From positions 41,070 through 74,527 of the forward strand of contig CALRCE010000002.1 in the NCBI GenBank assembly GCA_943354505.1: 33,458 bases of DNA. The letters are read 5' to 3'. The translations under genes and the position numbers were made by a program. Shown here one piece after another: positions 17,383 to 29,273 of the stretch. Within the stretch, counting starts at the first letter, position 1, and the number at the start of each line of letters is the position of its first letter. This DNA comes from Candidatus Peribacteria bacterium. Lineage in GTDB: Bacteria; Patescibacteriota; Gracilibacteria; UBA1369; 2-02-FULL-48-14. The notes under the pieces were generated by a model, which did not search any database, was not told the DNA's origin, and saw nothing but the letters and a program-made list of their open reading frames with translations.

Positions 17383-18043
17383 AAGAACGAAGGTTAAGGG
17401 TAGACGAAAGGAGAGCGCTCACATGCTCAATAGGAACGATGGCGATGAGGCCTTCTTCCGTTTGTTCAATGTGAACATGAGTTTCAGTGGTTTCATTGGA
17501 CGTGCCAATCATTTGGCCTTGCTCCATAGTCAGGCCGTCGAGCGGATATTTAAGGCCCTCGGAACTGAGCAGCACCGTGCGTTTGAGAGGATAAAGTGAA
17601 AAACGTGTGCCCAGCGGAAGTTGAACGCGGAAACTTTTTGGAAGGCGAACGATGACATCTTCTTTCGAAAAGAAAACGATTTGTTTGTGAGCGTATTTCT
17701 CCATCACATGAAGAATCTCCAAGGTGTGGTCAAAACGCTTCCCGATGAAACCCAAGGCCAAATAAAGAGGGGCCTCCACTTCGTTTAAACACTTCTCCAA
17801 ATCCGTGGAATCTTGCTCTTCAATGTGCACCACACGACTCTCACGTTCAAAAAAATCACGGTCTCTCAAAGAATCCATGTCTCCGATCACCGCATAAGGA
17901 AGCACCGAAAAATCATGCAAAACATTTGCGCCCCCATCGGCGGCGATGAGAGGGTGGGCGTCGGAGTACAAACTGCGAAACTGCTGTTCAGACAGCTCGC
18001 CGTCTCCGACCAGAAAGACGGGGGATTGAAATTGAAAAGTCAT
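17363..18043 (-). CDS. thiN: thiamine pyrophosphokinase
   Basis: A 226-residue enzyme that transfers pyrophosphate from ATP to thiamine, giving the cofactor TPP. The catalytic N-terminal domain shows AADGGANVLHD and YAVIGDMDSLRDRD, then QDSTDLEKCLNE, the conserved acidic and threonine residues that bind metal and ATP. ALGFIGKRFDHTLEIL matches the usual GA-x-GGR-x-DH segment. The C-terminal thiamine-binding beta domain includes LSSEGLKYPLDG and the TSNE segment. Length is normal. Directly upstream lies a TPP riboswitch, and the symporter gene overlaps its 3' end. Salvage of imported thiamine is the natural reading. Confidence 0.95.
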   Translation of the reverse strand: MTFQFQSPVFLVGDGELSEQQFRSLYSDAHPLIAADGGANVLHDFSVLPYAVIGDMDSLRDRDFFERESRVVHIEEQDSTDLEKCLNEVEAPLYLALGFIGKRFDHTLEILHVMEKYAHKQIVFFSKEDVIVRLPKSFRVQLPLGTRFSLYPLKRTVLLSSEGLKYPLDGLTMEQGQMIGTSNETTETHVHIEQTEEGLIAIVPIEHVSALLSSTLNLRSYGSLDA

Positions 18044-18044
18044 T

Positions 18045-18125
18045 GCGTGTTTCCTTTCGCCGGTGTGAACCGTGGCAAGTTATGAGGGTATGTTCTCAGC
18101 CCCGACCGGGCACCCCTAACAGCGC
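18045..18125 (-). promoter_or_regulatory. TPP riboswitch controlling thiN and the symporter
   Basis: On the minus strand, AGGGGTGCCCGG, the hallmark GGGGCTGAGA, ACATACCCTCATAACTTG and CACCGGCGAAAGGAAA follow the order of the TPP (THI-box) aptamer. P1 can form between GCGCTGTT (18118-18125) and AACACGC at the 3' end, with one bulged base. The start codon of thiN is one base beyond P1. The only Shine-Dalgarno-like sequence, AAAGGAAA, lies inside the conserved aptamer core, so TPP binding would block translation initiation directly without a separate expression platform. Confidence 0.92.
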
Positions 18126-18129
18126 CTGA

Positions 18130-27686: not shown

Positions 27687-28742
27687 TTAATAAAAGCCTC
27701 CCTTCAGGTATTTTTCGAGTATCTTAACGTTGGCGGCCGGAAAGGCCATGGTTTTGAGTTCTTCAGGTCGAACCCAACGGAATTCTGTAGCGGCCGTGAG
27801 TGCACCCACTTCTCCAATAGGTTCCGCAAGAAAACAATGCAAATCCACCAAATAACGAGTGTAGGCGTGTTGTAAATTCATGAAGAAACAGAGGTTTTTC
27901 ATTCTCAATCCGGTTTCTTCCAAAACCTCGCGACTCAAAGCTTCTTCGATGCTTTCGCCAGCCTCCACTTTTCCACCTGGGAACTCCCAAAGGCCAGCCA
28001 TCAGTCCTTTTTGATGTCGTTTTTGAATAAAAATTTTCCCATCCTTCTCTAAAATCGCAATCGCCACTTGAATTTTAACCTTAGCTTGAGCCGGCCCCTT
28101 GTTGGGAAGCAGTTCCACGTTGCCCGCCGCCAACGCTTTGCAAGAAGCCTTGAGGGGGCAAGCCGAACACTTAGGACTTTTAGGCGTGCAAACGAGGGCA
28201 CCCAACTCCATCATTGCTTGATTGAAATTCCGGGCTGAGCCATGAGGAAGCAGTTCTTCCGCCCTCTTCCAAAAATAAGGAACATTTTTCCGAACGTCCT
28301 CGTGAAAATCATCCAAACGGCTGAGCACGCGAATCACATTGCCATCCACAATAGGTTTATTTTGCTCAAAAACAATGCTGCTGATCGCACCAGCCGTGTA
28401 GCGACCAATTCCAGGCAACGCCAAAATAGCCTCGTATTCTTGTGGGAAAACGCCGCCGTGTTTCTCCACGACGAGGCGCGCCGCTTTTTGTAAATTTCTA
28501 GCTCGAGAGTAATATCCCAATCCTTCCCACAGCTTTAAAAGTTTGTCTTCATGCACCTCCGCCAAAGCCTTCACAGTCGGAAGAGCCGCGATAAAACGTT
28601 CAAAATAAGGGAGTACGGTCGTGACCTGCGTTTGCTGCAGCATGATTTCCGAAATCCAAACCTGATAAGGGTCGTAAGTCCGACGCCACGGCAAGTCCCG
28701 CTGCTCTTTTCTAAACCAAGTGAGGAGTTCATCCTGAAGCAT
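27687..28742 (-). CDS. mutY: A/G-specific adenine glycosylase
   Basis: A 351-residue base-excision-repair enzyme that removes adenine mispaired with 8-oxoguanine. The helix-hairpin-helix LPGIGRYTAGAISS is followed by VDGNVIRVLSRL with the catalytic aspartate. The Glu of ISEIMLQQTQV sits where the catalytic glutamate is expected. The [4Fe-4S] cysteines are C-x6-C-x2-C-x5-C (CTPKSPKCSACPLKASC). The C-terminal NUDIX-like domain retains the full MutT signature GGKVEAGESIEEALSREVLEETGL, which is unusually complete for MutY, whose C-terminal domain normally only recognises 8-oxoG. It is transcribed away from rpmA. Confidence 0.95.
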   Translation of the reverse strand: MLQDELLTWFRKEQRDLPWRRTYDPYQVWISEIMLQQTQVTTVLPYFERFIAALPTVKALAEVHEDKLLKLWEGLGYYSRARNLQKAARLVVEKHGGVFPQEYEAILALPGIGRYTAGAISSIVFEQNKPIVDGNVIRVLSRLDDFHEDVRKNVPYFWKRAEELLPHGSARNFNQAMMELGALVCTPKSPKCSACPLKASCKALAAGNVELLPNKGPAQAKVKIQVAIAILEKDGKIFIQKRHQKGLMAGLWEFPGGKVEAGESIEEALSREVLEETGLRMKNLCFFMNLQHAYTRYLVDLHCFLAEPIGEVGALTAATEFRWVRPEELKTMAFPAANVKILEKYLKGGFY

Positions 28743-28758
28743 ATCTTGATTTTACAGA

Positions 28759-28923
28759 AAATTCAGAGGTCTTTATAGGCCAATACGAGCATGAAGAGAA
28801 GCCGGGCGACGAAGTCGGGAGACCGCAGGTGCCTTTTGGCCCGCAAAGCGGCGGGTCCCGTTTCAAGGAGACAGGCTTCTCTTCAAGGCTCTGAAAGGGG
28901 TTTGAGTAAAGACCTCTGAATTT
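28759..28923. repeat. 165-bp inverted-repeat-bounded structured element
   Basis: A 17-bp perfect inverted repeat (AAATTCAGAGGTCTTTA at 28759-28775 with its complement at 28907-28923) bounds an 11-bp inner inverted repeat (GAAGAGAAGCC, 28793-28803, with 28874-28884). Inside are a CGGGA/TCCCG stem (28816-28820/28856-28860) and small hairpins CGAC-GAA-GTCG (28807-28817), GCC-TTTT-GGC (28831-28840) and CCGC-AAA-GCGG (28841-28851). A CAG flanks both sides (28755-28757, 28924-28926), a possible 3-bp target duplication. It lies in the divergent mutY/rpmA region. It could be a miniature mobile element, a structured RNA, or a 5' leader structure of either gene. No coding frame is convincing. Confidence 0.7.
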
Positions 28924-28927
28924 CAGC

Positions 28928-28956
28928 TTGCAAAATCCAAAAATTACCCTTAAAAT
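28928..28956 (+). promoter_or_regulatory. rpmA promoter
   Basis: TTGCAA (28928-28933) and TAAAAT (28951-28956) have a 17-bp spacer. The rpmA ATG follows 38 bp later and has no Shine-Dalgarno sequence. The promoter begins 5 bp after the inverted-repeat element. Confidence 0.65.
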
Positions 28957-28994: not shown

Positions 28995-29273
28995 ATGTCA
29001 CACAAGAAAGCCGGAGGTTCGAGTAGAAACGGACGCGATTCAAATGCAAAACGCTTAGGGGTTAAGCGCTTTGGTGGAGAAAAGGTAACGACAGGTAGCG
29101 TTTTGGTTCGTCAAAAAGGAACCAAATGGCATGCCGGTGAAAACGTTGGAGTAGGACGAGATTTCACGCTCTTCGCACTCGCTGAAGGAACTGTGACTTT
29201 TGCTGAAAAACGTCGCGTGAAGTTCAACGGAAACAGCAAGTTCGACACCATCGTCAGCGTTCTTTCAAAGTAA
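28995..29273 (+). CDS. rpmA: ribosomal protein bL27
   Basis: A 92-residue bL27 of the peptidyl-transferase centre. [28 protein letters not shown] is the conserved N-terminal tail, whose mature end reaches the P-site tRNA; no pre-peptide as in Firmicutes is present. [29 protein letters not shown] completes the core. It is separated by 20 kb from rplU and obgE, with which it usually forms one cluster. Confidence 0.97.

Follow-up and report, generated by a model that had tools for sequence, protein, structure and literature searches.

Between mutY and rpmA, in a window of 33,458 nucleotides from a Candidatus Peribacteria genome (the window being the whole stretch of DNA analysed), lies a 165-bp sequence made of nested inverted repeats. 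The original prediction hesitated between a non-autonomous mobile element and a structured RNA, and added that both neighbouring genes might be affected. Which of these descriptions fits? The features of the locus are as follows.

27687-28742, minus: mutY
28759-28923, plus (strand of the conserved tip): whole element, from inverted repeats, folding, blastn and a covariance model
28759-28775, plus: outer stem, left arm AAATTCAGAGGTCTTTA, perfect inverted repeat
28787-28803, plus: inner stem, left arm GAGC-a-TGAAGAGAAGCC, matching the one stem that other copies have
28807-28870, plus: conserved tip CGACGAAGTCGGGA...CGGGTCCCGTTTCAAGGAG, common to all copies
28808-28816, plus: minihairpin GAC-GAA-GTC
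28822-28830, plus: minihairpin ACC-GCA-GGT; TCC-GAA-GGA or TCC-GCA-GGA in other copies, the stem pair being swapped on both sides
28842-28850, plus: minihairpin CGC-AAA-GCG; CGC-GAA-GCG or CGC-GGA-GCG in most other copies
28874-28891, plus: inner stem, right arm GGCTTCTCTTCA-ag-GCTC
28907-28923, plus: outer stem, right arm TAAAGACCTCTGAATTT, perfect inverted repeat
28928-28956, plus: rpmA promoter-like boxes TTGCAA-17-TAAAAT, also in the congener, which is without the element
28995-29273, plus: rpmA

Two perfect nested repeats of 17 and 11 bp had been predicted. Both exist: the outer arms (28759-28775 and 28907-28923) are 17 nt long and 100% complementary, and the inner arms (28792-28803 and 28874-28885), also 100% complementary, are 12 nt long rather than 11, with GAGC (28787-28790) and GCTC (28888-28891) lengthening the inner stem past a bulge. 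The claim that such repeats and hairpins exceed chance holds on either strand, since relative to 200 dinucleotide shuffles RNA folding gives z of -6.8 and -7.7 for the two strands, and DNA folding gives -6.7. Inverted repeats scoring at least 16 in 1.105 Mb of the genome are mostly this element or similar hairpin elements, and 2 Mb of order-1 Markov sequence held 0 above 16. The element has no Rfam match at gathering scores, with chance matches only at E up to 10. Elsewhere in the window, a TPP riboswitch on the minus strand (18035-18127) scores 54.7 bits, against a gathering score of 54.3.

The element does adjoin the rpmA boxes, at 4 bp from the -35-like box (TTGCAA, 28928-28933) and not the 5 bp given earlier. 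An effect on mutY or rpmA finds no support: the element lies immediately upstream of promoter-like boxes that the congener keeps without it.

Copies of the element and the sites they occupy

The proposed search of the genome and its relatives did return further copies. By blastn, six further loci of this genome have only the middle ~62 nt in common with the mutY-rpmA copy; there the tip is directly flanked by an inverted repeat of 17-23 bp, 84-100% complementary, whose sequence is specific to each copy. A covariance model trained on the seven copies of this genome (L001 to L007, L001 being the mutY-rpmA copy) recovers exactly those seven here, with E of 1e-12 or better. It finds one copy in the same-genus genome G001, the congener (C9:15503-15592, E 5e-6), and one in G004, of another genus of the same family (C2:5885-5977, E 9e-9). 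In 86 further relatives it finds nothing. The exact tip pattern has two matches in 84,980 species, both due to chance by their context, and none in viral contigs.

Each copy, 98-165 bp long, is a hairpin with a conserved tip of ~62 nt and an almost perfectly paired stem of 17-23 bp. The two-tier stem of L001 recurs in the G001 copy (L159), with a second, outer stem of 20 bp; L003 and L006 have one extra hairpin in the tip, and L007 is without the middle hairpin. The genes on either side of a copy may be divergent (L001, L006), convergent (L004) or tandem (L002, L003, L005, L007), which does not fit a terminator or a dedicated regulator. A terminator was rejected also because no T tract follows the stem.

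We compared orthologous sites using one genome per species, so that presence and absence are read between species. At three sites the congener has a clean short gap at the same place. The mutY-rpmA gap measures 90 bp and has no hairpin in G001, against 249 bp here. The stop and start codons of an M23 peptidase gene and yidD overlap in three relatives, and a 104-bp copy separates the genes here. A pair of pilin genes overlaps in G001 and G002 and contains a copy here (L007), with the second gene open in frame; the copy at L019:10420-10519, in the N-terminal end of the pilin-like gene, would add some 31 residues before the prepilin-like segment if translated as predicted. The congener is without a hairpin at the L001, L002 and L007 sites, and has a different long hairpin at the L004 site. 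Two sites, the CNNM-L,D-transpeptidase gap and the gap upstream of ftsE, have long hairpins of different families in both species, and either are favoured sites or have undergone replacement. Upstream of ftsE the hairpins are unrelated (L221:8018-8105 in this genome, G000, with a 26-bp perfect stem; L159:1464-1619 in G001), and G005 and G002 have none. The copies may be old.

Dispersal in seven copies, whatever the orientation of the genes around them, and absence from the congener's orthologous sites thus favour the non-autonomous mobile element of the original prediction. Far from being unique and without covariation, the element has seven copies here and strong covariation in its stem.

Evolution of stem and tip

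The compensatory changes that had been called for are there. In a MAFFT alignment of the seven copies (covariation was also computed on nine), 19/19 stem pairs have changed on both sides. Stem covariation is 0.551, against 0.194 in shuffles (0/500 as high) and 0.07-0.21 when partners are slid. The tip evolves otherwise: its identity is 64-98% among the copies of this genome, and that of the stem is 19-51% for most pairs of copies (66% and 71% in two pairs). L004 and L005 have tips 98% identical and stems 26% identical, and L002 and L004 have stems 71% identical and tips 84% identical. Hence, tip and stem have different histories. A TGAA motif, spotted by eye, is common to 6/7 stems. Guide-like stems were rejected, as the arms have no further matches across 366 kb. 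At the empty sites the congener is too diverged for stem to be told from target DNA.

A series of GNA MINIHAIRPINS makes up the tip. Perfect 9-nt hairpins, with three base pairs and a C-GNA-G triloop, occur 18 times on the tip strand of this genome's copies and 0 times on the opposite strand, for an expectation of 0.26 per strand in all copies together. All four letters are found at N; L002 has four minihairpins, with loops GCA, GAA, GTA and GGA, and the mutY-rpmA copy has two, plus CGC-AAA-GCG. The middle minihairpin reads ACC/GGT or TCC/GGA according to the copy, which is a paired change. Across 1.1 Mb, at least three such minihairpins within 70 bp are found only in copies of this element; the G001 and G004 copies have no perfect 3-bp GNA minihairpin. 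The motif was spotted post hoc and the copies are homologous, so that the 18 are not independent and make a strong lead rather than a proof. In DNA, d(GCGAAGC) and GNA triloops closed by C-G are described as extraordinarily stable minihairpins (PMC4686876, which refers to Hirao 1994 and Yoshizawa 1997). The minihairpins suit DNA at least as well as RNA.

This genome and the congener both contain hairpin families of similar build, whose tips are conserved and whose stems covary. The hairpin families found in this and related genomes, and one other cluster of repeats, are listed here.

L077:15829-16134, L085:11230-11535, L150:10165-10470, L151:4858-5160 and L153:3685-3952 (G001): 306-bp composite, in which an invariant outer repeat CGTGAATCTTGAAAC surrounds two hairpins, alpha and beta, whose tips are conserved and whose stems covary
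L133:3632-3755, L209:432-554 and L224:3988-4111 (G000): second hairpin family of this genome (zeta), inner arm CAAAAGG fixed, outer arm variable on both sides
L088, L090-L097, L099, L100, L105, L109, L112 and L113: gamma hairpin family, order-wide, in many copies, with ends like TAGGRACCTCTGAAAAAC
L187:8460-10051 (G000 C5, contig end): inverted repeats clustered in 1.6 kb, their arms 13-18 bp long, which do not resemble the hairpin elements

At L209, two convergent genes that adjoin directly in the congener are separated by the zeta copy, which has TA on both sides; its CTTTA and TAAAG flanks suggest a TA target. Mean differences within the G001 composite rise from 0.00 (outer repeats) through 0.09-0.10 (tips) and 0.16 (unpaired spacer) to 0.26-0.27 (paired arms). 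The arms therefore diverge faster than the unpaired spacer with pairing kept, the reverse of what simple stabilising selection on structure predicts. Such changes could be explained by joint paired changes through fold-back synthesis, or by diversifying selection. The idea that the stem is an inverted copy of target DNA was set aside, and survives only within the doubtful proposal of fresh stems given below: copies of the beta and alpha stems of G001 show clear homology and mirrored changes, and most stems of our own family have the TGAA motif. G.U and A.C mismatches stand at 5:1 in the stems of our element, too few to decide, and at 6:5 on one strand of the composite (counted by hand).

Less likely readings: structured RNA, classical MITE and tip-only mobility

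One might explain the covariation, the conserved and directional tip and the folding z of about -7 by a multi-copy structured RNA, a cis element or small RNA whose tip binds a protein and whose stem is selected to pair as RNA. We find this unlikely. The occurrence of copies in every gene orientation and their absence from the congener's orthologous sites leave no conserved regulatory target, GNA triloops are known for their stability in DNA, and Rfam has no counterpart. The RNA option of the original prediction retains its covariation and its strong folding, but the mutY-rpmA copy lies upstream of the rpmA promoter and outside its transcript.

A classical MITE, excised at its terminal inverted repeats and moved in trans by a DDE transposase, would account for the size, inverted repeats and dispersal of the element, and the gamma and zeta families do look MITE-like. 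It is nonetheless quite improbable, being strained by the variable ends: terminal repeats conserved between copies were looked for and not found. The CAG reported at both ends of L001 does exist, but direct repeats of this sort do not recur consistently in the family, TATGG flanking only L002 and CAG only L001. With neither conserved ends nor a consistent target duplication, the element is not classed as a MITE. DDE_Tnp_1 (PF01609), the one DDE family searched for, is absent from the seven genomes searched, this one included and several of them bearing gamma.

That only the ~62-nt tip moves, by inserting into the loops of existing hairpins such as terminators, is very improbable: it would agree with the different genealogies of tip (L004/L005) and stem (L002/L004) and with the different long hairpin of the congener at the L004 site, but 1.1 Mb of sequence has hardly any stems of 17-23 bp that are not capped by such a tip, and the congener's L001, L002 and L007 sites have no hairpin at all.

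A proposed folded single strand among known hairpin systems

The reading that we favour, with moderate confidence, is a non-autonomous, palindromic mobile element of the RPE/REP/MITE kind that acts as a folded single strand. Its design is unusual: the sequence-specific, conserved part is the tip of the hairpin, and the stem has only to pair. We propose that one strand, exposed at the replication fork or by cruciform extrusion, would fold into the hairpin, and that a host or foreign enzyme would recognise the folded tip and then copy or insert the hairpin. The arms might be kept complementary by fold-back (template-switch) synthesis, which would copy one arm onto the other; alternatively, only well-paired copies might be able to move. 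For neighbouring genes, the element would be mostly neutral parasitic DNA. Copying by reverse transcription was rejected, since no reverse transcriptase (RVT_1) was found.

Among the closest known systems are Rickettsia palindromic elements, which are dispersed long stem-loops of 105-146 bp that lie in gaps or, in some cases, form in-frame fusions with genes (PMC2229807). Our element shares the long stem-loop, the size (~100-150 bp), the several copies and the presence both in gaps and, in one case (L007, by predicted translation), in frame in a gene. The likeness is one of description, and RPE families are described with terminal inverted repeats, whereas here the ends vary and the tip is conserved. 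REP/BIME sequences and REPINs, which go with RAYT (Y1) transposases, are also folded intergenic hairpins, tagged with CGTC or GTAG and short: a REP measures 20-40 bp, its stem has 5-13 bp and its tag is terminal (PMC3733652, PMC2817692). The tip starts with GACG, the complement of the CGTC tag, but stem length and architecture are unlike REP: stems are long and variable and copies few. There is no Y1 gene in G001, although it has one copy of the element. This genome has one, an IS200-type gene of 147 aa (L154:1462-1902, G000 C6) with its own GGGCGTAAGCCC / GAGCGTAAGCTC hairpins at the ends, unrelated to the element. Bacterial MITEs such as Correia, ERIC and RUP (PMC10969869) are likewise small, dispersed, non-coding, non-autonomous and intergenic, with inverted repeats, and differ in the conserved terminal repeats, consistent target duplication and DDE_Tnp_1 transposase that we did not find. 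Shared structure with compensatory changes also likens the element, by description and at 98-165 bp, to much smaller repeats. These are the cyanobacterial SDR4, SDR5 and SDR6, reportedly presented by Elhai et al. in 2008 as mobile repeats of 21-27 nt whose structure is backed by compensatory changes.

It is usually by their conserved ends that small palindromic repeats of bacteria are recognised as families. Our element inverts this pattern, with free ends and a fixed tip, and a sequence search consequently misses most of each element. The same arrangement hints that folded single-stranded DNA is itself what is recognised. With several hairpin families and no DDE_Tnp_1 detected in a genome of 1.16 Mb, the mover is directly testable. 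Genomes across the class are likewise small, mostly 0.6-2 Mb, which suggests a candidate-phyla lineage. We may go one step further, to a tentative and rather doubtful proposal, that the folded tip, a C-GNA-G array in single-stranded DNA, is the sole inherited unit, and that every new copy gains a new and perfectly paired stem through fold-back synthesis where it inserts. If true, this would be a new mode of hairpin mobility.
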